Shown here in pieces: positions 2,834-38,462 of a DNA stretch of 64,000 bases. This DNA comes from Micrococcus cohnii (GTDB taxonomy: Bacteria > Actinomycetota > Actinomycetes > Actinomycetales > Micrococcaceae). The stretch spans positions 2,046,001 through 2,110,000 of the forward strand of contig NZ_JACHNA010000001.1 in the NCBI RefSeq assembly GCF_014205175.1. The letters run 5' to 3'. Numbering within the stretch: position 1 is the stretch's first letter; each line of letters opens with the position of its first letter. The notes below the pieces were generated by a model. The model made no database searches, was not told where the DNA came from, and saw nothing but the letters and a program-made list of their open reading frames with translations. A program made the position numbers and the translations under genes.

Positions 2834-3576
2834 GCCAGGAGGAGTTGGCCGCGGCCTTCGACGCCCACCCGACGACGCTCGCCCCGCTGCTGCTCGGGTG
2901 CCGCCTGACCGTCGCGGTGGCCGGTCATGCGGACCTCACCGGCACGGAGGCGGGCCAGGCATCGGCCCCGGAGCCCGTGACGGTGCGGCTGACCGAGGTC
3001 GAGGCCTACGGGGATGAAGGCGAGGACCCCGGAGCGCATTCCTTCCGCGGGCGCACCGAGCGCAACGCCGCGCTGTTCGGCCCGACGCGGCACACCTACG
3101 TCTACCTGAACTACGGAATCCACCGCTGCGTGAATCTCGTGGCCCACGAACCGGGCCGGGCCGGCGGCGTCCTGCTGCGCGGCGCTGAGGTGCTCGACGG
3201 ACGGCCGACGGCCGTGTGCCGGCGCGGTCGCGACACCGGTCGTCGGCTGCTCTCCGGTCCGGGCAACCTCGGTCAGGGCCTCGGGATCACCCTGTCGATG
3301 GGGCATCTGCCGGTCGTCCTGGCCGAGCCGGGGGAAGACGTGCAGGACGCTCTCGTGCGGGCGCGAGGGGAGCTCTGGGCCGGAAGCGCGGCGCCGGCCG
3401 TCTTCGTCCTCGCGCCGCCCGCGGCGCCGCAGGAGCCCGAGCAGGCCCGCGTCCGCACGGGGCCGCGCGTCGGGGTCTCCGGCGAGGGCGGCTCGACTCG
3501 CTATCCGTGGCGGTTCTGGCTGGACGCGGAGCCGTCCGTCACGCGGTACCGGCCGGGCAGGAATGTGCCGGCATGA
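2830..3576 (+). CDS. mpg: DNA-3-methyladenine glycosylase (AAG/MPG family)
   Basis: Excises alkylated purines such as 3-methyladenine to start base-excision repair. The 248-residue protein has the AAG-family order: LLGCRL near the N-terminus, [20 protein letters not shown] (catalytic Glu and the following loop), [16 protein letters not shown], the LLRGAE strand and the [14 protein letters not shown] helix-loop. It starts with GTG overlapping the panC stop, so it is translationally coupled to panC; the pairing is not functionally obvious. Residues 200-215 ([15 protein letters not shown]) form a slightly longer linker before the conserved RVGVSGEG...PWRFW end. Confidence 0.92.
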
Positions 3577-3717
3577 TTCCGCAGCGCTGAGACGGAAATG
3601 CCGCAGGTTCGCAACATGGCCGATGCGGTTCGCTGCGGCAATGTTGCGACAGCGCGGTATTTCTCGTCAGACGCAGCCCCGCGCTCGCACGCTTGCCAGC
3701 GCGGCCCCGGGCGTGCG

Positions 3718-3729
3718 TACGGTGCCCCT
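3718..3729 (+). promoter_or_regulatory. Leaderless promoter of the SRPBCC gene
   Basis: TACGGT at 3718-3723 ends 6 nt before the ATG at 3730; a TTGCCA at 3693-3698 could be its -35. No Shine-Dalgarno sequence is present. Confidence 0.55.
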
Positions 3730-4209
3730 ATGGCTATGAACCAGACGCCCCAGGGCGAGACCAAGCAGACCGTGACCCGCACGATCGACGCGCCGGCGAA
3801 GGACATCTTCGACGTGCTGACGCTGCCGCAGCGTCACGAGGAGTTCGACGGCTCCGGCATGGTCCGCGCCGACGAGAAGTCCGACCGCATCCAGAAGGTC
3901 GGCGATGTGTTCACCATGAACATGCACGGCGACCACATGGGCGGCGACTATCAGACCGACAACCACGTCGTCGCCTATGACGAGAACAAGCTCGTCGGCT
4001 GGAAGACCGCGCCCGCCGGCACCCAGCCTCCGGGCTGGCAGTGGGTGTACCGCCTCGAGGACAACGGCGCGGGCTCGACCGACGTCACCTTGGAGTACGA
4101 CTGGTCCGACGTGACCGACCAGGACCTGCTCGCCAAGAACCTGTTCCCCCTGGTCAGCGAAGAGCAGATGGCCGAGTCGCTCGAGAAGCTGGCGGCCGCC
4201 GTCAACTGA
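3730..4209 (+). CDS. SRPBCC (START-like) domain protein
   Basis: A single SRPBCC fold of 159 residues: VTRTIDAPAKDIFDVLTLP is the usual first strand-helix segment, YDENKLVGWKTAP and TDVTLEYDW are later strands, and the C-terminal helix is EEQMAESLEKLAAAV. Such proteins bind lipids, polyketides or other hydrophobic ligands; the ligand here is unknown. The reading frame is open back to 3598, but the ATG at 3730 matches both the family start and the -10 six bases upstream. ATG 3736 is a second in-frame candidate. It is a single-gene unit, ending before a strong terminator hairpin. Confidence 0.85.
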   Translation: MAMNQTPQGETKQTVTRTIDAPAKDIFDVLTLPQRHEEFDGSGMVRADEKSDRIQKVGDVFTMNMHGDHMGGDYQTDNHVVAYDENKLVGWKTAPAGTQPPGWQWVYRLEDNGAGSTDVTLEYDWSDVTDQDLLAKNLFPLVSEEQMAESLEKLAAAVN

Positions 4210-7057: not shown

Positions 7058-8721
7058 GCGTGCCGCCTCTCCGGATCGTCGCGGCGCTCCGTCCCGGTGG
7101 GAGCGGACCCCGGTGCGGATGACTCGGCGCGCAGCTCTTCGCCAGAACGCTGGCCGAGGCTGACGTTCGGCAGGAACAGGATCGCCAGGAGCGAGACGAC
7201 GGCCAGCGGCACCGTGATGAGAAACGCCTGCGAGATGCTCTGCGCGTAGACGTCCTCGACGATCACGCGCAGCGGCTCGGGCATCGCCGCGACGGCCGGC
7301 AGCGTCCCGCTCTGCAGGGATTCGGCCCAGCGCGGTCCGTCGGCGCCCAGGGAGGCCAGCGCCCGCCTCAGATCGCCGGCGCGCTCGGTCATGCCGGTGC
7401 CGACGGTCGTCGCGACGGCCGCGCCCATCGCGGAGACGCCCGCGGTGCCGCCGAGGGAGCGGAAGAAGGTGACAGCCGAGCTCGCGACGCCCAGGTGCTG
7501 GGGGGCGACGGCGTTCTGCACGACGAGCACGAGGTTCTGCATGGTCGATCCCATGCCGACGCCCACGAGGGCCATGTAGAGGCACACGAGCGCGAAGGGC
7601 GTGTCGTAGTGCAGTGTGCTCAGCAGTGCGGTGCCGGCGATCAGGCTGACGGCGCCGCCGACCAGGTACGGCTTCCAGGAGCCGTGTTTCGTGATGCGTC
7701 TGCCGACGAGAGTGGAGGTGATCAGGAACCCGGCCATCAGGGGGATCGTCATCAGGCCGGCGTGCGTCGGGGTCGCCCCGCGCGCCAGCTGCATGTACTG
7801 GGCGAGGTAGACGGAGGAGCCGAACATCGCGACCCCCACGGCGATCGAGGCGATGACCGCGAGGGTGACGGTGCGGTCAGCGAACAGGTGCAGCGGCAGT
7901 AGCGGTTCGGGGTGCCGACGCTCGACCACGACGAACAGGACGGCCGCCGCGAGCGCCCCGCCGAGCATCCAGGCGGTCGTCGGGCTGAGCCAGTCGTACT
8001 CGGTGCCCGCGTTCGTGATCCACAGCAGCACCAGGGAGGTGGCGACGGCCAGCAGCAGGATGCCGAGCACGTCGATGTGGGCCCGGCGCGGCTGCATCGG
8101 CGCCAGGCGCAGGGTGCGCTGCACCATCACCAGGGCGATGAGTGCGAAGGGCACGGACACGAGGAAGTTCCACCGCCAGCCGAACGCATCGGTGATGAGG
8201 CCGCCGGCCAGCGGGCCGCCGACGGTCGCGACGGCCATGACCGCCCCGAACAACCCCATGTAGCGACCACGTTCGCGCGGGCTCATCAGGTCGGCCATGA
8301 TCACCTGGCTCAGGGCGATCATGCCGCCGCCGAACAGGCCCTGGAACACGCGGCAGCAGATGAGGAACTCCGGACTGTGGGAGAAGCCGGCGCTCGCGGA
8401 GGCGAGCACGAAGCCGACGATCGCGATCTGGAACAGCAGCTTGCGGTCGAACAGGTCGGCGAGCTTGCCCCAGATCGGGGTTGCGATCGCCGTCGAGAGC
8501 AGCATGGCGGTGACCACCCAGGTGTAGGAGGCCTGCGTGCCGCCGATGTCGTGGACGATCACGGGCAGGGACGTCGAGACGACGGTGTTGGCGATCATCG
8601 AGACGAACATGCCCAGCAGCAGCCCGGTGAGCGAACGGAGGATGCGCCGGTGGCGCTGCTGAGCATCCTCGGTCGGGTGGACGACCGGTACGGACGCGGT
8701 CTGGGGGACGACGACGGGCAT
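7054..8721 (-). CDS. DHA2-type MFS drug/proton exporter (14 TM)
   Basis: A 555-residue major facilitator with 14 predicted hydrophobic segments, the size and layout of DHA2 (EmrB/QacA-type) exporters. Visible motifs are GKLADLFDRKLLF (motif A after TM2), the RVFQGLFGGGMIA stretch of TM4, and LFGAVMAVATVGGPLAGGLITDAFGWRWNF (split over TM5, motif C). It probably exports hydrophobic or cationic toxic compounds by proton antiport. It is the first gene of an operon with the MarR regulator. The ATG at 8721 has AAGGAAG just upstream, behind a promoter with overlapping palindromes. Confidence 0.93.
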   Translation of the reverse strand: MPVVVPQTASVPVVHPTEDAQQRHRRILRSLTGLLLGMFVSMIANTVVSTSLPVIVHDIGGTQASYTWVVTAMLLSTAIATPIWGKLADLFDRKLLFQIAIVGFVLASASAGFSHSPEFLICCRVFQGLFGGGMIALSQVIMADLMSPRERGRYMGLFGAVMAVATVGGPLAGGLITDAFGWRWNFLVSVPFALIALVMVQRTLRLAPMQPRRAHIDVLGILLLAVATSLVLLWITNAGTEYDWLSPTTAWMLGGALAAAVLFVVVERRHPEPLLPLHLFADRTVTLAVIASIAVGVAMFGSSVYLAQYMQLARGATPTHAGLMTIPLMAGFLITSTLVGRRITKHGSWKPYLVGGAVSLIAGTALLSTLHYDTPFALVCLYMALVGVGMGSTMQNLVLVVQNAVAPQHLGVASSAVTFFRSLGGTAGVSAMGAAVATTVGTGMTERAGDLRRALASLGADGPRWAESLQSGTLPAVAAMPEPLRVIVEDVYAQSISQAFLITVPLAVVSLLAILFLPNVSLGQRSGEELRAESSAPGSAPTGTERRDDPERRHA

Positions 8722-8729
8722 GTGCTTCC

Positions 8730-8750
8730 TTGACTCGGGTCAATGATTGA
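8730..8750 (-). promoter_or_regulatory. Putative MarR operator of the exporter operon
   Basis: Two overlapping inverted repeats lie in the leader: TTGAC-TCGG-GTCAA (8730-8743) and TCAAT-G-ATTGA (8740-8750). They sit just downstream of the expected transcription start, between the -10 and the exporter start codon, where a MarR repressor would block transcription. Assignment to the adjacent MarR gene is inference. Confidence 0.5.
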
Positions 8751-8759
8751 TGGCGAGCA

Positions 8760-8767
8760 ACTATAGT
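8760..8767. promoter_or_regulatory. Symmetric -10 element between divergent genes
   Basis: ACTATAGT is its own reverse complement and gives a TATAGT -10 on both strands. On the minus strand it is 39 nt before the exporter start. The plus-strand gene has its own leaderless -10 at 8820. Confidence 0.5.
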
Positions 8768-8819
8768 CTCGCCAGGGTCGCCCCACCACCCTTATGACGG
8801 CAGTCACGCCTGCGCCGGT

Positions 8820-8832
8820 TAGGCTGGACGAC
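8820..8832 (+). promoter_or_regulatory. Leaderless promoter of the D-2-hydroxyacid dehydrogenase
   Basis: TAGGCT at 8820-8825 ends 7 nt before the ATG at 8833. It fixes this ATG over the longer in-frame start at 8794. Confidence 0.6.
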
Positions 8833-9807
8833 ATGACTGCGCGCTTCCTTCAGATGATCGACCTGCCCGAGCCCGGCGCCTCGATGCTTGCCGAGGCCGG
8901 TCACGTCACCCGCGCCGACGAGGTCGTCGGCCGCGACCTCGCCGAGCTCACCTGCTCCGGTGACTATGACGTCGTCGTGTGCGCCCTGGACCAGCGCTTC
9001 GACGCCGAGCTGCTGGCTGAGGCGAAGCTCGCGGGCATCGCCAACTACGCGGTCGGGTACAACAACATCGACATCGCGGCGGCCGAGCGGGCCGGAATCC
9101 TCGTCGGCAACACCCCGGACGTGCTGACCGGCGCGACCGCGGACATCGCCCTGCTGCTGATCCTCGGGGTCACCCGCCGCGCCGTCGAGGGGGAGGCCAT
9201 GATGCGTGAAGGCCGATTCACCGGCTGGCGTTCGGACCTGCTCGTCGGCAAGGACGTCGCCGGCGCCACCCTCGGCCTGGCCGGGTTCGGCCGCATCGGC
9301 CGCGCCGTCGCCGAGCGCGCCCTGGCCTTCGGCATGGAGGTGATCTTCGCCCCGCGCCCGCCGGCCCACCGTGAGGTCTCCGACGAGGAGCTCGGCGCGC
9401 TCGCCGGTCGGGTGCGCCAGGTCCGCTGGGAGGAGCTCGTCGAGCACTCCGATGTGCTGTCTCTGCACGTCCCGCTCACTGACGCCACCCACCACCTCGT
9501 CGACGCCGACGTGCTGGCCCGCATGAAGGACGATGCGGTGCTGATCAACACCGCGCGCGGCCCCGTCGTGGACGAGTCGGCGCTGGTGACGGCGCTGCGC
9601 GAGGGGCGGCTGTTCGGCGCCGGCTTCGACGTCTACGAGCATGAGCCGGCCATGGCGCCGGGCCTGGCGGAGCTGCCGAACGTCATGGTGCTGCCGCATC
9701 TGGGCTCCGCGACCCGCGACACCCGCGCCGCGATGGCGGAGCTGACGGCCCGCAACGCGATCGCGATGGCCACCGGGGCGCCGGTCCCCGCGCGTGTCAC
9801 GGCCTGA
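8833..9807 (+). CDS. NAD(P)-dependent D-2-hydroxyacid dehydrogenase
   Basis: Reduces a 2-oxoacid such as glyoxylate or hydroxypyruvate to the D-2-hydroxyacid, or the reverse. In 324 residues it shows the expected order: the N-terminal catalytic half-domain ending in YAVGYNNIDIAAAERAGI, the nucleotide motif LAGFGRIGRAVAERA (about 150-165), NTARGPVVDESAL with the substrate-binding Arg, the Glu of YEHEPAM, and the catalytic His in LPHLGSATRDTR. The glyoxylate/hydroxypyruvate reductase subgroup fits best, but the substrate is not settled. It is a single-gene unit with a leaderless promoter, divergent from the exporter operon. Confidence 0.9.
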   Translation: MTARFLQMIDLPEPGASMLAEAGHVTRADEVVGRDLAELTCSGDYDVVVCALDQRFDAELLAEAKLAGIANYAVGYNNIDIAAAERAGILVGNTPDVLTGATADIALLLILGVTRRAVEGEAMMREGRFTGWRSDLLVGKDVAGATLGLAGFGRIGRAVAERALAFGMEVIFAPRPPAHREVSDEELGALAGRVRQVRWEELVEHSDVLSLHVPLTDATHHLVDADVLARMKDDAVLINTARGPVVDESALVTALREGRLFGAGFDVYEHEPAMAPGLAELPNVMVLPHLGSATRDTRAAMAELTARNAIAMATGAPVPARVTA

Positions 9808-9840
9808 AGCCTCCGGCGGCGCCCGGCGGTCCCGACGGCC

Positions 9841-9854
9841 TAGAATCGGGGACC
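9841..9854 (+). promoter_or_regulatory. Leaderless promoter of lysS
   Basis: TAGAAT at 9841-9846 ends 8 nt before the GTG at 9855, without a ribosome-binding site. Confidence 0.6.
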
Positions 9855-11378
9855 GTGACCTCCCAGAATCCCGCTTCGCAGCCCGAGTCCACCGTCGACC
9901 ATCACGATCAGCAGGCCGTGCGCGCCGCCAAGCGCGAGGCGCTGATCGCCGCCGGGGGCGAGGCCTACCCGGTGCGGGTCGAGCGCTCCCACTCGCTCGC
10001 GCAGGTGCGCGCCGAGTTCCCGGACCTCGAGCCCGGTGCCGAGACCGGCGTCACCGTGAGCGTGACCGGGCGCGTCGTCTTCCTGCGCAACACCGGCAAG
10101 CTGTGCTTCGCGACGCTTCAGGAGGGCGGCGAGGACGGCGAGGGAGTGCGCCTGCAGGTGATGGTGTCTCTGGCCAATGTCGGCGAGGATCAGCTGGCGC
10201 AGTGGAAGAGCGTCGTCGACCTCGGCGACCACCTCGCGGTGACGGGCGAGGTCATCGCCTCGCGTCGCGGTGAGCTGTCCGTCATGGCCTCGTCCTGGAC
10301 GATGGCCTCGAAGGCGCTGCGCCCGCTGCCGGTGTTGCACGCGGACCTCAACGAGCAGACGCGCGTCCGCCAGCGCTACGCAGACCTGATCGTGCGTGAC
10401 GAAGCCCGCGAGATGGTCTACCGCCGCGCGAAGATCACCGCCGCCGTGCGCCGCACCCTCGAGGGTCACGGCTACGTGGAGGTCGAGACGCCCATGCTGC
10501 AACTCGTGCACGGCGGTGCGCAGGCCCGGCCGTTCGAGACCCATCTGAACGCCTTCGACCAGGACATGACCCTGCGCATCGCGACCGAGCTGTACCTGAA
10601 GCGCGCCGTCGTCGGCGGCATCGACCGCGTGTACGAGCTGGGCCGGGTGTTCCGCAACGAGGGCGTCGACTCGACGCACTCGCCCGAGTTCACGACCCTC
10701 GAGTCCTATGAGGCGTGGGCGGACATGTACGTCATGGCCGAGCGCATGAAGGAGATCATCCTGAACGCGGCCGACGCGATCGGTGCGGGGCGGCGGATCG
10801 AGACCGAGGACGGCGTCATCGACCTCGACGGCGACTGGGCCTGGGTCGAGGTGTACCCGGGCCTGTCCGAGGCCGTCGGTCAGGAGATCACGCCCCAGAC
10901 CGACGCGGAGACGCTGCGCGGGATCGCCGAGCGCCACGAGGTGAAGATCGACCCCGCCTGGGACGCCGAGAAGCTCGTCATCGAGCTGTTCGGCGAGATC
11001 GTCGAGCCGACGCTGATGAACCCGACCTTCGTGTACAACTACCCGCCGGCCGCGCAGCCGCTGGCGCGTGCGCACCGTGAGAAGCCGGGCGTCATCGAGG
11101 CGTGGGACCTGATCATCGGCGGAATGGAGCGCGGCACCGCGTTCTCCGAGCTGATCGATCCGGTCGTGCAGCGCGAGCGTTTGACCGCGCAGTCGCGTGC
11201 GGCGGCCGCGGGCGACGACGAGGCCATGCAGCTGGACGAGGACTTCCTGCGGGCCCTGGAGTACGGCGCGCCGCCGATGGGCGGCATCGGCCTGGGCATC
11301 GACCGGCTGGTCATGCTCTTCACCGGCGCCGGCATCCGCGAGACCATCCTGTTCCCGCTGCTTAAGCCGGAGGCCTGA
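9855..11378 (+). CDS. lysS: Lysyl-tRNA synthetase, class II
   Basis: Charges tRNA-Lys with lysine. The 507-residue protein has the anticodon-binding OB fold (GVTVSVTGRVVFLRNTGKLCF) followed by the class II core: motif 1 region VRRTLEGHGYVEVETP, motif 2 RVFRNEGVDSTHSPEFT (about residues 265-282) and motif 3 GIGLGIDRLVMLF (about 477-489). Length is normal. A 72-residue membrane protein begins 5 nt after the stop, so the two probably share a transcript. The tRNA it serves is encoded at 27578. Confidence 0.97.
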   Translation: MTSQNPASQPESTVDHHDQQAVRAAKREALIAAGGEAYPVRVERSHSLAQVRAEFPDLEPGAETGVTVSVTGRVVFLRNTGKLCFATLQEGGEDGEGVRLQVMVSLANVGEDQLAQWKSVVDLGDHLAVTGEVIASRRGELSVMASSWTMASKALRPLPVLHADLNEQTRVRQRYADLIVRDEAREMVYRRAKITAAVRRTLEGHGYVEVETPMLQLVHGGAQARPFETHLNAFDQDMTLRIATELYLKRAVVGGIDRVYELGRVFRNEGVDSTHSPEFTTLESYEAWADMYVMAERMKEIILNAADAIGAGRRIETEDGVIDLDGDWAWVEVYPGLSEAVGQEITPQTDAETLRGIAERHEVKIDPAWDAEKLVIELFGEIVEPTLMNPTFVYNYPPAAQPLARAHREKPGVIEAWDLIIGGMERGTAFSELIDPVVQRERLTAQSRAAAAGDDEAMQLDEDFLRALEYGAPPMGGIGLGIDRLVMLFTGAGIRETILFPLLKPEA

Positions 11379-11382
11379 GGCC

Positions 11383-11601
11383 ATGGACGCGTTCTGGGAG
11401 TACTTCTCCGTCCTCGCGCCGTCGATCGGTCTGGCCCTGATCTTCTGGCTGGTCATGCGCTCGTTGTTCCGTGCGGACACGGGAGAGCGTGAGGCGCAGA
11501 ACCGGCGCCTGACCGGCGAGGACGACCGTGCCGCCCGGGAAGAGCGTGAAGCGCGGGAATGGGCTCGCGCTCGAGGCGACAAAGCCGGCCACGGAGAGTG
11601 A
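11383..11601 (+). CDS. Small single-pass membrane protein
   Basis: A 72-residue protein starting with ATG 5 nt after the lysS stop; GGAGG upstream lies within the end of lysS. Residues about 5-27 are one hydrophobic helix (YFSVLAPSIGLALIFWLVMR) and the rest is a highly charged Arg/Glu/Asp tail likely to be helical and cytoplasmic. Its position directly behind lysS suggests co-expression. No function can be assigned. Confidence 0.7.
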   Translation: MDAFWEYFSVLAPSIGLALIFWLVMRSLFRADTGEREAQNRRLTGEDDRAAREEREAREWARARGDKAGHGE

Positions 11602-11626
11602 ACTCCGCTCCGGCCGATCGGACATG

Positions 11627-11780
11627 CCTTTTTACCGCATTTGCATACCTGGGTTATTCTTAGTTGTGGTTTACGCTCACATAATGGTGAACGTGGAGCC
11701 GACAGCGTGAAACGAAAAGTTCCGGGCGTGCGTGGCGCGAGAATCCGGACGGCATGAATGCGGAAAGGCAGACGAACATC
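11627..11780 (+). promoter_or_regulatory. AT-rich leader and promoter of lsr2
   Basis: The stretch 11627-11686 is about 60% A+T, far above its surroundings. It contains TTCTTA (11657-11662) and CATAAT (11680-11685) at 17-bp spacing as a possible promoter. Because Lsr2 binds AT-rich DNA, this is a natural site for autoregulation (inference). Confidence 0.45.
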
Positions 11781-12083
11781 GTGGCTCAGAAGGTGGAAGT
11801 GGTTCTCGTCGACGATCTGGATGGCTCGGCCGCCAAGGAGACGGTGATGTTCGCCCTGGACGGCCGGCACTACGAGGTGGACCTGTCGGAGGAGAACGCC
11901 AAGCAGTTGCGCGACTTCCTCAAGCCGTACATGAAGAAGGGCCGTGCGGTGGCCCCGCCCTCGCCGAAGGCCGAGGCCGCGGAGATCCGCAAGTGGGCCG
12001 CCGAGAATGGCTATGAGGTCTCGGCGCGTGGCCGTCTGCACCGTGACGTCGTCGAGGCCTACCGCAACTCGCGACGCAAGTGA
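11781..12083 (+). CDS. lsr2: Lsr2 family nucleoid-associated protein
   Basis: A 100-residue H-NS-like protein that bridges DNA and silences AT-rich, often acquired, genes. The N-terminal dimerisation domain reads AQKVEVVLVDDLDGS...TVMFALDGRHYEVDLS, and the C-terminal DNA-binding domain holds the AT-hook-like RGR in VSARGRLHRDVVEAYR. I chose GTG 11781 because family members begin with MAQKV; ATG 11754 would add nine residues without homology. AAAGG at 11763-11767 is a distant ribosome-binding site. The gene is followed by a stem-loop and then clpC, a neighbourhood common in Actinobacteria. Confidence 0.95.
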   Translation: MAQKVEVVLVDDLDGSAAKETVMFALDGRHYEVDLSEENAKQLRDFLKPYMKKGRAVAPPSPKAEAAEIRKWAAENGYEVSARGRLHRDVVEAYRNSRRK

Positions 12084-12148
12084 CGCCGTCCCTCGTGCTC
12101 GTCCGAGTGCGGGGAACGGGCCGGTTCGGTGCGCCGAGGCGCACGGGA

Positions 12149-12191
12149 CAGGGCGGCTGACTCGCTTCACCCTGTGGCGAACAGCCGCCCT
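12149..12191 (+). terminator. Stem-loop after lsr2
   Basis: AGGGCGGCTG (12150-12159) pairs with CAGCCGCCCT (12182-12191) around a 22-nt loop between lsr2 and clpC. It is a weak terminator candidate. Confidence 0.4.
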
Positions 12192-12210
12192 TCGGCGTGC
12201 CCGGGGTGCG

Positions 12211-12246
12211 TAGGCTCGGGGCCGAACGTCAGCCAAGGAGTGTGCC
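12211..12246 (+). promoter_or_regulatory. Promoter and ribosome-binding site of clpC
   Basis: TAGGCT at 12211-12216 is the -10 and AAGGAG at 12235-12240 is the ribosome-binding site for the ATG at 12247. No HAIR or CIRCE-type heat-shock operator is evident next to it. Confidence 0.5.
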
Positions 12247-14775
12247 ATGTTTGAGAGATTCACCGACCGTGCCCGGCGGGTGGTGGTGCTCGCGCAGGAA
12301 GAGGCGCGGATGCTCAACCACAGCTACATCGGCACCGAGCACATCCTGCTCGGGCTGATCCACGAGGGCGAGGGCGTCGCCGCGAAGGCGCTCGAGTCCA
12401 TGGACATCTCCCTCGCCGCCGTGCGGGAGAAGGTCCAGGAGGACATCGGCCAGGGCCAGCAGAACCCGCCCGGCCACATCCCCTTCACCCCGCGCGCCAA
12501 GAAGGTGCTCGAGCTGTCACTGCGTGAGGCGCTGCAGCTCGGCCACAACTACATCGGCACCGAGCACATCCTGCTCGGTCTGATTCGCGAGGGTGAGGGC
12601 GTCGCCGCGCAGGTGCTGGTGAAGCTCGGCGCGGACCTGAACCGGGTGCGTCAGACCGTCATCCAGCTGCTCTCGGGCTACCAGGGGAGCGGGTCCGGCG
12701 GCAAGGAGACCGCGGGCGTCGGCGCGGGCCCCTCCGGCGGTTCCGACGGCCAGAACGCCGGTTCGGTCGTGCTCGACCAGTTCGGGCGCAACCTGACCGC
12801 CGCCGCCAATGAGGGGCAGCTCGACCCCGTGATCGGCCGCGCGGAGGAGATGGAGCGCGTCATGCAGGTGCTCTCCCGCCGGACGAAGAACAACCCCGTG
12901 CTCATCGGCGAGCCCGGTGTGGGCAAGACCGCCGTCGTCGAGGGGCTCGCTCAGGCGATCCATCACGGCGACGTGCCGGAGCCGCTCAAGGACAAGCAGC
13001 TCTACTCGCTCGACCTCGGCTCGCTCGTGGCCGGTTCGCGCTACCGCGGCGACTTCGAGGAGCGCCTGAAGAAGGTGCTCAAGGAGGTCCGCACGCGCGG
13101 CGACATCATCCTGTTCATCGACGAGATCCACACGCTCGTCGGTGCCGGCGCTGCCGAGGGCGCGATCGATGCGGCGAACATCCTCAAGCCGATGCTCGCC
13201 CGTGGTGAGCTGCAGACGATCGGCGCGACCACGCTCGACGAGTACCGCAAGAACATCGAGAAGGATGCGGCCCTCGAACGCCGCTTCCAGCCGATCCAGG
13301 TGAACGAGCCGTCCGTCGAGGACGCGACCGAGATCCTGCGCGGCCTGCGCGACCGGTACGAGGCCCACCACAAGGTGTCGATCACCGACGGTGCCCTGCA
13401 CGCGGCGGCGTCGATGGCCAGCCGCTACATCTCCGACCGCTTCCTGCCGGATAAGGCGATCGACCTGATCGACGAGGCCGGCGCGCGCCTGCGGATCCGC
13501 CGCATGACCGTGCCGCCGGAGATCAAGGCGTACGAGGAGCGGATCGCGGAGGTCCGGACCAAGAAGGAGGCCGCGATCGACGGCCAGGACTTCGAGGCCG
13601 CCGCCGCCTTCCGCGACCAGGAGAAGCAGCTCGAGGACGAGCGACGCGAGAAGGAGGACGCCTGGCGCACCGGAGCCGACTCCGACGTCGCCACCGTCGA
13701 CGAGGACCTGATCGCCGAGGTGCTGTCCAAGTCCACCGGCATTCCGGTGTTCAAGCTCTCCGAGGAGGAGACCGACCGGCTCAAGAACATGGAGGCGGAG
13801 CTGCACCAGCGCGTCATCGGGCAGGACGAGGCCATCACATCCCTCTCCCGCGCCATCCGGCGCACCCGTGCGGGCCTCAAGGACCCGAAGCGCCCGTCGG
13901 GGTCGTTCATCTTCGCCGGCCCCACGGGCGTTGGCAAGACGGAGCTGGCCAAGTCCCTCGCGGAGTTCCTCTTCGGCGAGGAGGACGCGCTCATCACCCT
14001 GGACATGTCCGAGTTCCAGGAGAAGCACACGGTCTCGCGCCTGTTCGGCGCCCCTCCCGGCTACGTCGGCTACGAGGAGGGCGGCCAGCTCACCGAGAAG
14101 GTGCGCCGGCGTCCGTTCTCCGTCGTGCTGTTCGACGAGGTCGAGAAGGCCCATGCGGACCTGTTCAACTCGCTGCTGCAGATCCTTGAGGACGGTCGCC
14201 TGACCGACTCGCAGGGTCGCGTCGTGGACTTCAAGAACACCGTCATCATCATGACGACGAACCTGGGCACCAAGGACATCTCCAAGGGCGTCATGACGGG
14301 CTTCGGGTCGACGACGAACGAATCGTCGAGCTACGAGCGCATGAAGGGCAAGGTCCGTGAGGAGCTGCGCCAGCACTTCCGGCCGGAGTTCCTGAACCGC
14401 GTGGACGACGTGATCGTGTTCCCGCAGCTGCAGAAGCGCGAGATCGTGGAGATCGTGGACCTGTTCATCGCGCGCCTGAGCGAGCGGCTCGCCGAGCAGG
14501 AGCTGTCGATCGAGCTCACGGACGCGGCCAAGGACCTGCTGGCCGAGCGCGGCTACGACCCGGCCATGGGCGCTCGGCCCCTGCGCCGCACCATTCAGCA
14601 GATGCTGGAGGACCAGCTCTCCGAGAAGATCCTCTTCGGGGAGATCCCGGCCGGCTCGCTGATCTCGGTCGACGTGACCGGTGAGGGGGCGGACGCCGAG
14701 CTGACGTTCTCCTTCTCGGGAGGCACCGAGCAGCTGGAGGGAACGCCGATGGCCGAGCTCGAGTCGGGCGAGTGA
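12247..14775 (+). CDS. clpC: ATP-dependent Clp protease ATP-binding subunit ClpC
   Basis: A class I AAA+ unfoldase that feeds substrates to ClpP. The 842 residues hold two Clp-N repeats (both with [13 protein letters not shown]-type motifs, residues 1-145), a Gly/Ser linker, AAA module 1 with GEPGVGKT near 221, a middle domain with a UVR segment ([18 protein letters not shown]) that marks ClpC rather than ClpB, AAA module 2 with GPTGVGKT near 558 and DEVEKAH, and the C-terminal D2-small domain. The C-terminal AELESGE tail is unremarkable. The gene is complete and probably monocistronic. Confidence 0.98.
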
Positions 14776-27577: not shown

Positions 27578-27650
27578 GGGCCTTTAGCTCAGCTGGCAGA
27601 GCATCGGACTTTTAATCCGCCGGTCGCGGGTTCGATCCCCGCAGGGCCCA
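27578..27650 (+). tRNA. tRNA-Lys (anticodon TTT)
   Basis: A 73-nt cloverleaf with acceptor stem GGGCCTT/AGGGCCC (one G-U pair), D arm AGCTCAGCTGGCAGAGC, anticodon loop CTTTTAA giving TTT, and T arm GCGGG-TTCGATC-CCCGC. The discriminator is A and CCA is not encoded. Confidence 0.97.
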
Positions 27651-27747
27651 CCCTCGCGCATCGTCGCTGCCGCGGGAAACCCGGCGAGGCGCCGCCTTCG
27701 CTGACTCAGCGCCTCGTAGACAGGCCGGGCCGTCAGGCGGTGCCGGC

Positions 27748-29078
27748 CTACTCTCCGAGCACCCGGCGCGTGTAGTCGTTGGCGAACACGCGCTCGGGGT
27801 CGACGCGGTCTCGCTGGGCCACGACGTCTGCGAAACGCGGATACGCCTCGGCGGCCCAGGCGGCGTCGACGCGGTTCATCTTCCCCCAGTGCGGGCGTCC
27901 GCCCAAGCTCAGGAACAGCTCCTCGCCCGCCCGGAAGTACTCCTCCGGGTCGACGCTGCGGTACTGGTGGATCGCGAAATACACGCTGTCGCGACCGTGG
28001 GCGGTCGAGAGCCACACGTCGTCCGCCGAGGCCGTGCGCACCTCGAACGGGAACCCGACGGTTCGTCCCGCCGCGGCCAGGTCGTGGTGGATCCGGCGCA
28101 GCCCCTCGAACGCCTCCTCGAAGCGCTCGAGCGGCAGCGCGTACTCGGTCTCCCAGAACGGCACGGTGCGGTTCGCCACGAACACGCGATGCGAGACGTC
28201 GGTGTACTCGCGCCGATCGGCCAGCAGGTTCGCCAATCGGCTGAGTGCGGGGACGGCCGCCGGCCAGCGTCCGCCGACGCGGCATGACAGATCGAAGGCC
28301 CGGTTCGCCAGCAGCTCGTCCATGACGTGGGTCCGCAGCCGGGGCAGGGGGTCGATGCCGGAGGCCAGCGGCAGGCGGGTGTTCGTCTTGGTCAGGGCGG
28401 CATCCGTTCCCGGGAATCAGTAGAACTCGTGGTGGTCGTTGTCCCGGGAGCGCTGGACGAACTCAGCGACGACCCGGTCGATCGGCTCGGAGCGCTCCGC
28501 GGCGTGCAGCAGAAACGACGGCACGGTCTGCAGCTCGACCTCGGTGATCACACCGAGGGCGCCCAGGCTGACGCGGGCCGCAGCGAACAGCTCCGGCTCG
28601 TGCGCAGCGTCGACCCACCGGAGGTTTCCGTCGGCGGTCAGCAGCCGCAGGGCGGTGACCATGGCGGAGTATCCGGTAAACCCCAGGCCCGTTCCGTGCG
28701 TCGAGGTGCTCAGCGCCCCGCCGAGCGTCTGCTGATCGATGTCGCCCATATTGGCCAGGGCCAGGCCATGGGCGGCCAGAGCGGGGCCCAGAGCATGTAG
28801 CGGGGTGCCCGCGCGCACCCGCACGCGTCGGGTGTCGGGGTCCACGGCCGTGAGGCCGTGCAGGGCGCCGAGGTCCACCTGCACGCCGTCGGTCGCGGCG
28901 ATGTCACTGAAGGAATGCGCTGCGCCGATCGGCTTGACACTCCGGTGGTTCCGGGCCGGTCGGCCACGATGTCGCGGAGCTGTTCCTCGGTCTCGGGTCG
29001 GACCATCTGCCACGGCGTCCAGGAGGCGGTGCGTGACCAGGTGGTGACGGTCCCGGACGTGGTGGTGCGACGGTTCAT
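27748..29078 (-). pseudogene. Broken FAD-linked oxidase (D-arabinono-1,4-lactone/alditol oxidase type)
   Basis: Three aligned pieces together give a nearly full-length (about 440-residue) FAD-linked oxidase. Piece 1 starts at ATG 29078 and ends RDIVADRPGTT; the sequence then resumes in another frame with HRSVKPIGAAHSFSDIAATDG, best explained by loss of one base in a G/C run near 28951-28960. Piece 2 runs through NMGDIDQQTLGGALSTSTHGTG, the FAD-binding region, to a TGA at 28417-28419 that sits where relatives have Trp (HHEFY-W-FPGTD). Piece 3 continues in the same frame to 27748 with HWGKMN and DPERVFANDYTRRVLG. The start overlaps the stop of the deaminase gene (ATGA), so the operon is intact apart from the two lesions. 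Sequencing error at both sites is less likely than decay. Confidence 0.85.
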
Positions 29079-30421
29079 TGGAATGCCTTGCCTTCTCCTC
29101 GGTACGTGGGCCAGAGGTCGACGATCGCGTCCTCGGTCGCGGAGTACACCGCGACGACGGTGGCCCGCTCGGCAGGCTCACCTCCCTTGGCATGCCGGAA
29201 GAACACGGGGTCGCCGAGGGATAGGGAGTCCGTTGCCGTGCCCAGCAGTGGGGTCTGCACCTCGCCGGCGCCTTCGCTGCACGAGTATCGCAGGCCTTCG
29301 GGCCACACGACGGCCGGGGCACGGTCCGGGCCGCACACCCCGGATGCGGCCCAGCCGCCCCCGGCGACGGTGACCACGCCGGGGCCGGGGCGCCGGGCGA
29401 CCGGGCAGACGAAGAACGAGGCCGGGTTGGGGCGGAAGGTGCGGTATCCATCGAACAGTGCCGGTCCCATCAGCCCGGAGCCGGCGCCGATCTCGGTGAT
29501 GCAGTCGTGGGTGGTCGTGGCGTCGATGGATCCGGTGCCGCCGCCGTTGACGAACTCCAGTCGGCTGCCGGCGGCCTCGACCACCTCGCGGACGGCCTCG
29601 ACCGCCGCGGTCCGGCGGGAGCGCAGCTCGCGCAGGGAGGCGCGCTTGACCGCCTGCACGACCCCCGACTTCGCGAACCCCTGAGCGCGGGCGAGCAGGG
29701 TGCTCGGCTGGGAGGGTTTGTCGGCCACGCCCGCCACCTGCGCTTCATAGGCCATCAGTCCGACGAGTGCGCAGCCGGGTGTGCCCGTGATGGTCCGGGC
29801 CAGCGTGGCGGCGTCCGCCGGGGTGCGCGTGGGCGAGCGCAGGGCGCCCAAATGCAGGCGCGGATGGGGTCGCCAGCCGGCGTCGAGCTCGAGGCACAGG
29901 CGCAGCGGGGGAAGCCCGTCGGCCTCCAGGCCGGAGCGTCCGCCCAGGCCGGCTCGGTGGCCGATGTCGCTCAGCAAGGACAGGTGCTCGGCGCTGTCCA
30001 CCATCAGGGTGATGCGTTCGCGCGCCGGGGCCGAGCGCAGCATCTGTGTCAGTGCGTGCTCGTCGACGCAGGGGTAGGCGACCAGGACGTTCCGGTGCTC
30101 CCGGGCCGATTCGGTCGCGCGGGACTCGGCGTGCGTGGAGTCGTCGGCGCCGGAGAGCCACAGGGCCTCGGCGAGGGTGAACGCCATGATGTGACGGAAG
30201 CCCGGCATCGTCAGCGCCGCGTCGATCCCGCGGCGGATGCGGACGGATTTGGTGGCCAGGCGGATCGGGGTGCCGTCAGCGCGCTGCGCCATCGACCGGG
30301 CGTTGGCGGTGAACGCGTCGAGGTCGAGCAGGCCGAGGGGGGCCTGGCGGTCGCGGGCGGGCAGCGCGGCCAGCGCGTCCGCGTACCGCTCGTACGGCGG
30401 TGCGGGCGGAGTCGTCGTCAT
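29075..30421 (-). CDS. Amino acid deaminase/aldolase (PLP, alanine racemase-like fold)
   Basis: A fold-type III PLP enzyme of 448 residues related to D-threonine aldolase, D-serine dehydratase and alanine racemase N-terminal domains. The PLP lysine is in RLATKSVRIR (about K58). A glycine-rich phosphate loop is suggested by FVNGGGTGSID and the C-terminal beta domain contains TVAGGGWAASG. The substrate is unknown. It is translationally coupled (ATGA) to the following FAD-linked oxidase gene, a pairing I recall from other actinobacteria; here the oxidase is broken while this gene is open. GGAGG lies about nine bases before the ATG, and TAGTAT (30474 to 30469, minus) is a possible -10. Confidence 0.82.
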   Translation of the reverse strand: MTTTPPAPPYERYADALAALPARDRQAPLGLLDLDAFTANARSMAQRADGTPIRLATKSVRIRRGIDAALTMPGFRHIMAFTLAEALWLSGADDSTHAESRATESAREHRNVLVAYPCVDEHALTQMLRSAPARERITLMVDSAEHLSLLSDIGHRAGLGGRSGLEADGLPPLRLCLELDAGWRPHPRLHLGALRSPTRTPADAATLARTITGTPGCALVGLMAYEAQVAGVADKPSQPSTLLARAQGFAKSGVVQAVKRASLRELRSRRTAAVEAVREVVEAAGSRLEFVNGGGTGSIDATTTHDCITEIGAGSGLMGPALFDGYRTFRPNPASFFVCPVARRPGPGVVTVAGGGWAASGVCGPDRAPAVVWPEGLRYSCSEGAGEVQTPLLGTATDSLSLGDPVFFRHAKGGEPAERATVVAVYSATEDAIVDLWPTYRGEGKAFQ

Positions 30422-30548
30422 GGTCTGAGCCCTCCGGGGGTCGTCGAGGGGGCCGAAAGGCGGTTCACATACTAATCACATCATGGACGTGCCGTCTCGT
30501 CAGGAGGCTCGGCGCGGCTCAGCCCTGCAGTCGTCCCGGCCCGCTGGT

Positions 30549-30561
30549 TAGTGTGGCCGCC
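30549..30561 (+). promoter_or_regulatory. Leaderless promoter of the gene at 30562
   Basis: TAGTGT at 30549-30554 ends 7 nt before the ATG at 30562 and rejects the longer in-frame start at 30400. Confidence 0.55.
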
Positions 30562-31398
30562 ATGGCTAAGAACTCCTTCCTCGGCCGCATGGCCGGCGAC
30601 AAGGCACTGAACATGGCGCTCAAGAACGCCTTCGACGACGAGGGGAACCCCACCGACTCGTTCCAGAAGACGGTGCTGCGCGCGATGAAGCTGCAGCGGC
30701 CGCTCGTCGTGGCGAACCTGCGGCGCCTGCACGAGAACCACCCGGACGAGTCGCCCGCCCAGCTGGCCGACCGACTGAGCGATCAGTACCTGAACACCGT
30801 CACCGGGGCCGGCGCCGCCGTCGGCGGCACCGCGATCATCCCCGGCATCGGCACGATCGCGGCGCTGGGCCTGTCCGGGGTGGCCGTCATCGGTTTCCTC
30901 GAGGCCACCGCCCTGTACGCGCAGTCCATCGCCGAGCTGCACGGCATCACGACCGAGGATCCGCAGCGCGCCGAGGCCCTCGTCATGGCCGTGATGCTCG
31001 GCGAGGACGGCCGCAAGATGCTCAAGGAGTTCGCCGGCTCGCAGCGCGGCGGCGCCGCGGCGTCGCTGGGCGGTCCCGGTGCGCTGAACGCGCTGACGGC
31101 CACCGGCGGCGGCATGTCCGACATGGTCATGAACCAGCTGAAGAAGAAGTTCATGCGCAAGGTGCTCGTCCGCCAGGGGGCGGGCTTGTTCGGCCGCGCC
31201 GTGCCGTTCGGCGTGGGTGCCGTGATCGGCGGTGTCGGGAACCGCTCGATGGGCAAGTCCGTGATCGCCTCGGCGCAGAACCTGTTCGGGCCCGTGCCGC
31301 AGACGCTGCCCGGCGACGTCGTCGAGACCAAGGACGAACGTGAGCAGGCCGAGGCGGCGCGCGAGCTCGAGCAGAAGGGCCTCGGCCCGGACGCCTGA
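30562..31398 (+). CDS. Conserved hypothetical protein with glycine-rich hydrophobic core
   Basis: A 278-residue protein with a soluble helical start, a Gly/Ala-rich hydrophobic hairpin at about residues 80-125 (GAGAAVGGTAIIPGIGTIAALG then SGVAVIGFLEATALYAQSIAELHG), a charged middle and a second Gly-rich segment (GLFGRAVPFGVGAVIGGVGN). The arrangement is reminiscent of EcsC-like or other glycine-zipper membrane-associated proteins, but I cannot assign a family with certainty. It stands alone, leaderless, convergent with the DUF445 gene. Confidence 0.75.
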   Translation: MAKNSFLGRMAGDKALNMALKNAFDDEGNPTDSFQKTVLRAMKLQRPLVVANLRRLHENHPDESPAQLADRLSDQYLNTVTGAGAAVGGTAIIPGIGTIAALGLSGVAVIGFLEATALYAQSIAELHGITTEDPQRAEALVMAVMLGEDGRKMLKEFAGSQRGGAAASLGGPGALNALTATGGGMSDMVMNQLKKKFMRKVLVRQGAGLFGRAVPFGVGAVIGGVGNRSMGKSVIASAQNLFGPVPQTLPGDVVETKDEREQAEAARELEQKGLGPDA

Positions 31399-38049: not shown

Positions 38050-38122
<73 letters not shown>

Positions 38123-38205
38123 CGAGTCGCACGACGCCCGTCGCGGTCGGATCGGCATGATGCAGATCACCGCAGGTCGACTTTGTGAGGCTCCGGGGAC
38201 TCTGG

Positions 38206-38248
38206 TAGAGTTTCCACTCGTTGCGAAAGCGACAGAATAAGAGAATAT
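38206..38248 (+). promoter_or_regulatory. Promoter of tRNA-Asp
   Basis: TAGAGT at 38206-38211, with TTTGTG at 38182-38187 as a possible -35, lies in the 126-nt gap between tRNA-Glu and tRNA-Asp. Confidence 0.45.
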
Positions 38249-38322
38249 GGCCCTGTAGCGCAGTTGGTTAGCGCGCCGCCCTGTCACGGCGGAGGTCGCG
38301 GGTTCAAGTCCCGTCAGGGTCG
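38249..38322 (+). tRNA. tRNA-Asp (anticodon GTC)
   Basis: A 74-nt cloverleaf: acceptor GGCCCTG/CAGGGTC with one G-U pair, anticodon loop CTGTCAC giving GTC, T loop TTCAAGT, discriminator G, no encoded CCA. Confidence 0.97.
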
Positions 38323-38381
38323 CTCGGATGTTCCGACTCCGGAATTCCGGTGCCGGATGTCCCGGTGACGCAATGTCATCA

Positions 38382-38454
38382 GGCTCTGTAGCTCAGTTGG
38401 TAGAGCGTTCGACTGAAAATCGAAAGGTCACCGGATCGACGCCGGTCGGAGCCA
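38382..38454 (+). tRNA. tRNA-Phe (anticodon GAA)
   Basis: A 73-nt cloverleaf: acceptor GGCTCTG/CGGAGCC, anticodon loop CTGAAAA giving GAA, T stem ACCGG/CCGGT. The T loop is ATCGACG, so the usual T54 is A. Discriminator A, no encoded CCA. Confidence 0.96.
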
Positions 38455-38462
38455 CGGCATCA

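Follow-up and report, generated by a model that had tools for sequence, protein, structure and literature searches.

Probable recent inactivation of an FAD-linked oxidase gene in Micrococcus cohnii, within a two-gene unit that is broken or missing in most genomes of the genus surveyed

The window analysed here is a 64,000-nucleotide stretch (positions 2,046,001-2,110,000) of the 2.28-Mb one-contig genome of Micrococcus cohnii (G000). On its reverse strand it carries the remains of an FAD-linked ALO-type oxidase gene (27748-29078) and an open partner gene (29075-30421), which encodes a putative fold-III PLP enzyme of the D-threonine aldolase / D-hydroxyaspartate dehydratase type. The oxidase remains, which were delimited from the list of open reading frames, a profile match and alignments, are spread over three open reading frames, one in the start frame (28710-29078) and two in a second frame (28417-29451 and 27748-28323). 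The oxidase start overlaps the partner stop as ATGA (29075-29078, reverse strand), as a sequence-only reading of this DNA had noted, and ATGA or GTGA was also found by eye at the same junction in six other genomes of the genus (G002, G005, G007, G008, G009 and G010). A tRNA-Lys (TTT) gene on the forward strand, at 27578-27652 after conversion from the reversed region, forms a boundary of the operon. Between the partner and the next gene there is a short gap (30421-30565), and a divergent alpha/beta-hydrolase-like gene, which in G003 is next to the start of the operon and in G004 and G006 next to the tRNA, was not seen here. The genome itself is the smallest of the 11 same-genus genomes (the others are 2.5-2.7 Mb, rounded), a size that fits genome reduction.

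From its ATG, the oxidase follows the family frame for about 38 residues, changes frame at about 28939-28970, meets an in-frame TGA at 28419-28417 and continues to 27748. A frame-aware alignment with the oxidase of G009 covered residues 1-449 of 450 in 441 columns at 63% identity, and showed a single lost base, a TGA opposite W228 and a seven-codon gap near residue 10, while G001 as the reference placed the shift at 28964 and the stop at 28419. The stretch of the reverse strand that has lost one base (28939-28970, within which the exact base is not assignable) was bounded by eye between the last match in the start frame and the GTC codon at 28936-28938; it includes 28955, near which a one-base deletion had been proposed, and the shift does not lie within a long homopolymer. 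As for the TGA (28417-28419, reverse strand), which had been placed where the family has Trp, the same column in 23 other sequences holds 22 TGG codons, one GTG and no stop, the TGG sequences including G002, which was counted as broken and whose start frame is itself shifted there. Alignment with orthologues, a check proposed beforehand, showed none that shares the stop as a natural C-terminus. The frame is interrupted relative to intact orthologues, as in a bacterial pseudogene, and the claim that two lesions interrupt a single oxidase frame is borne out.

With the stop read through, the oxidase matched TIGR01679 (bact_FAD_ox) at 362 bits, well beyond chance and above the curated cut-off of 292 though the match begins only at profile position 33, and Pfam ALO (PF04030) at 213.5 bits over positions 1-258 of 258, with a further match to FAD_binding_4 (PF01565). 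The window copy is therefore a broken member of the TIGR01679/ALO family, which passes the cut-off with one TGA inside its frame and a frameshift. In M. tuberculosis, Rv1771 was reported as an L-gulono-gamma-lactone dehydrogenase, according to an excerpt of PMC11505616 that cites Wolucka and Communi (2006). The G000 genome holds a single TIGR01679 match at E <= 1e-3, with no second copy of the oxidase at that threshold. Among actinobacterial oxidases, Rv1771 would belong, like the window gene, to the ALO type in a broad sense.

The nearest solved structures to the oxidase by sequence are the alditol oxidases AldO (2vfr, S. coelicolor) and AldOAb (8ot8). The active-site set of alditol oxidases, as given in AldOAb numbering in an excerpt of PMC10771423, comprises His45, Ser103, His118, Gln295, Glu327, Arg329, His350 and Lys382. 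Five of the eight residues named in that excerpt, namely the FAD-linking His45 (retained here as the His codon at 28915-28917, reverse strand), His118, Glu327, Arg329 and Lys382, align with identical residues in the window oxidase, whereas Ser103, Gln295 and His350 are aligned with Asp, Glu and Ala, respectively, a His standing two residues further in the last case. Because these three residues are unmatched as aligned, the oxidase cannot be assigned to an alditol substrate, and its substrate was probably other than that of AldO or AldOAb. The earlier description of an alditol/aldonolactone-type oxidase in three parts is accordingly kept for one oxidase running across the open reading frames, but 'alditol' is too narrow. 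The oxidase keeps the FAD-linking His (in AHSF here and in GHSF in the other 23 sequences), the THG motif before the TGA and the HWGK motif after it, and the residues aligned with Glu327, Arg329 and Lys382 of AldOAb all lie downstream of the TGA.

The partner gene is open over 448 amino acids and aligns at full length to whole homologues, and it carries three changes at 81 invariant sites (zero to four in the other sequences), an analysis that used 12 of the 80 loci of the more distant set. Its product matched Ala_racemase_N above the Pfam cut-off, and its predicted fold resembled those of D-threonine aldolase (4v15, 7dib), beta-hydroxyaspartate aldolase (6qkb) and D-threo-3-hydroxyaspartate dehydratase (3wqc), with a Foldseek probability of 1.00, TM scores of 0.61-0.68 on query length and about 16-22% identity; a weak sequence match to 4v15 was also found. 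As well, Lys58, which may be the PLP lysine, is invariant in 10 sequences (an alignment that used 9 of the 80 more distant loci), and the model combines the fold-III barrel and the beta domain that characterize D-threonine-aldolase-like enzymes with this candidate PLP lysine. The partner is thus a putative PLP enzyme of the D-threonine-aldolase/hydroxyaspartate-dehydratase type, although it falls far under the cut-off of the BhcC equivalog (29 vs 690 bits). The upstream gene had been read as an open PLP deaminase, of which the PLP enzyme and the open frame stand, while 'deaminase' gives way to the type suggested by the fold. Compared with the G009 protein, the partner has extra segments of 13, 2, 4, 1 and 11 residues, the first of them in the region of residues 97-103, which are modelled with low confidence.

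The sequence of the oxidase suggests that it probably died recently relative to the length of its branch, because its catalytic motifs are kept and its changes at conserved sites do not exceed the range that intact relatives span. Of 58 sites that do not vary among 21 whole sequences, one is changed in the broken copy, compared with zero to three for whole sequences left out in turn (16 of the 80 more distant loci were taken in), which agrees with the recent loss suggested by the sequence-only reading. At sites invariant within the genus, G000 differs at 25 of 198, close to G005 (25/223) and G010 (31/229); the lower values of G001 (7/205), G007 (9/207) and G009 (12/210) come from genomes with nearer relatives in the set. 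In GC3 the oxidase (0.897) sits at the bottom of the range of eight other window genes (0.897-0.942) without falling below it.

The window was also compared with G001 for lesions of the same kind, in 37 comparisons with spans totalling 44,656 bases (more than 40% identity over more than 70 residues). Two open reading frames of G001, one on the strand opposite the oxidase and one that contains the deaminase, were replaced by the two proteins themselves, and a third, antisense to pstB, was left out as well. Six comparisons gave events flanked by similarity on either side, of which one is the oxidase TGA and the other five were rejected as coding-frame lesions on inspection, since they reflect antisense open reading frames (two), overlaid tRNA genes (one) and open reading frames reaching upstream of the start (two). 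A run of tRNA-Glu, tRNA-Asp and tRNA-Phe at 38050-38455 on the forward strand was the source of the false signal from tRNA genes. The automatic support rule, which asks for 30 or more columns on each side, flagged the TGA and not the shift, upstream of which there are only 27 residues, 12 of them identical.

Seven genes flanking the operon were checked in ten relatives, and one of 67 usable comparisons had an internal frame lesion or a deletion of at least 10 codons (GDPD of G002), compared with 6 of the 16 operon genes present in these relatives that are broken. The 67 remained from 69 after PiT of G006 (cut by the stretch end) and pstB of G010 (poor match) were set aside. Shifts within the first 20 residues (DUF445 and GDPD of G001, GDPD of G004, G007 and G008), a shift near the C-terminus (h30400 of G009) and insertions of 10-16 codons (GDPD and h30400 of G006, GDPD of G007 and G008) were not counted as internal lesions, and the names GDPD, PiT, pstB, phoU, DUF445, h26730 and h30400 are labels given by resemblance or position rather than by family search.

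The gene pair occurs widely across the family. Literature searches found no paper on it as a pair; searches at record level on the pair, on Rv1771/Rv1769, which we suppose to be its M. tuberculosis homologues, and on gene loss in Micrococcus returned nothing on the operon. Of 395 family genomes, an oxidase match at E <= 1e-40 was obtained in 201 (above the cut-off in 148), and among the matches listed only that of G000 has an internal stop. The partner was found at E <= 1e-30 in 100 of the 395 genomes, and in 94 of these it immediately precedes an oxidase on the same strand, within 150 bases; the remaining six are G001 (189 bases), four genomes in which the two genes lie head to head at a distance of about 1.2 kb, and G054. 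The association runs one way only: the partner is nearly always beside the oxidase, and many genomes have an oxidase match but no partner. In the more distant set, a partner match was present anywhere in the stretch at 35 of 80 loci. In G054, which is outside the genus, a partner fragment with an in-frame TAG (C8:102599-103078) lies 1.3 kb from a full-length oxidase.

Within the genus, G000 and ten other genomes were searched (n=11), and both genes are whole in four of them (G001, G005, G009 and G010), whereas the pair is broken or gone in the other seven, that is, in G000 and in six of the ten relatives. An N-terminal shift in the oxidase of G001 was considered as a lesion and read instead as a different N-terminus, in-frame GTG codons standing upstream. 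In G000 the oxidase alone is broken and the partner is whole, while in G007 and G008 the oxidase is whole and the partner has an identical in-frame 53-codon deletion, which an alignment put in place of the frameshifted deaminase that two separate matches had suggested. This deletion corresponds to about residues 125-180 of the window protein and, judged by eye on the model, would remove two strands of the barrel together with one to three helices, whole or partial, which would be expected to kill the enzyme. In G003, a deletion fuses about the first 130 partner codons to about oxidase codon 125, and a frameshift and two more deletions, of 18 and 20 codons, are also present. In G002, losses of one base and 11 bases put about 21 codons around the Trp of the oxidase out of frame, and the partner has lost 11 bases close to its start. 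No pair was found in G004 and G006, whose flanks are in place; in G006 an 86-base match remains, which takes in the beginning of the divergent neighbour and the spacer as far as the partner start.

On a tree of the seven flanking proteins (without GDPD of G002, PiT of G006 and pstB of G010; G006 also lacks pstB in this tree), these states require at least six separate events, in G000, G007/G008, G002, G003, G004 and G006. G002 and G003 group together with a support of 92 and have no lesion in common. By parsimony, G004 and G006 have lost the pair rather than lacked it originally, since their tree neighbours have it at the same place. The event in G002 is the weakest of the six and its lesions may be assembly errors, because another frameshift occurs nearby in a GDPD-like gene; that neighbour (L054, reversed region about 3219-3940) points to either further pseudogenes or assembly errors in G002.

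Taken with the lesions themselves, these comparisons make it very probable that the oxidase gene of the window has truly been inactivated, and recently, and that it belongs to a two-gene unit (PLP enzyme, then FAD oxidase) repeatedly lost in Micrococcus. As predicted from the sequence, a working oxidase would not be made, because the product from the oxidase start would consist of about 38 native residues followed by out-of-frame sequence, and any internal restart would hit the TGA at 28419 before most of the substrate domain. The main alternative is that the gene is intact in the cell, with errors of sequencing or assembly behind one lesion or both. Loss of one base is a frequent assembly fault and the rest of the oxidase shows little decay; however, errors of two types, an indel and a substitution, would be needed in one gene when the 37 window comparisons revealed no other coding-frame lesion, the shift stands outside long homopolymers, and related genomes show other kinds of breaks in this unit. 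We regard errors as unlikely, because of the window-wide control and the genus survey.

Expression by recoding, through frameshifting and TGA read-through, or as split proteins is far less probable still: the second frame is open from 29451 to 28417 and an internal start could yield an FAD-domain fragment, but two separate recoding events would be required, none of the 23 compared sequences has the TGA, and the residues aligned with the catalytic Glu, Arg and Lys all come after it. Retention of an N-terminal or half fragment for a new function, to which the little-diverged conserved sites might point, is the least likely reading of all, as motifs are kept on both sides of the TGA, as expected for recent death, and no compared sequence stops there.

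As a probably genuine pseudogene, the G000 oxidase taken alone is ordinary gene decay in a known family, and it is also one instance of the repeated genus-wide loss of the operon. It resembles ordinary operon pseudogenes under relaxed selection in its frameshift and nonsense lesion and in the deletion of the operon in related species, and differs from them in that either partner may break, with at least six events in 11 genomes of one genus. The unit may have become dispensable, hence the gene hit would differ between lineages. The suggestion that a pathway lost its oxidation step may hold, but the partner is assigned to a type of PLP enzyme rather than to one substrate and so gives the pathway no name; a plausible role of the pair would be to degrade an unusual hydroxy-amino acid and, coupled to this, to oxidize a sugar-like product.

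More tentatively, the pair could be a niche liability or a free passenger that is lost convergently, with either partner going first and the survivor still whole in G000 and in G007/G008; we hold this as a possibility with the balance against it. If it were true, the two enzymes would have separable roles even though the partner nearly always occurs with the oxidase in the family. Independently of this reading, the related species make up a natural deletion series, some with both genes, some with one whole gene and some with none, in which the role of the pair could be tested through metabolites and growth.

Finally, a ~6.3-kb element with an integrase-like gene (named by resemblance) adjoins the tRNA-Lys gene in G006 (L073, G006:C1:222000-238000, reversed region about 7728-14083), and on its far side, at the place that the oxidase operon takes up in other species, at least 30 bases of the tRNA 3' end are repeated. 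This element was considered as the cause of the operon loss and is not favoured; the operon was probably already gone before the element entered, because the second copy of the tRNA 3' end (7728) is only ~100 bases from the last operon-side match.
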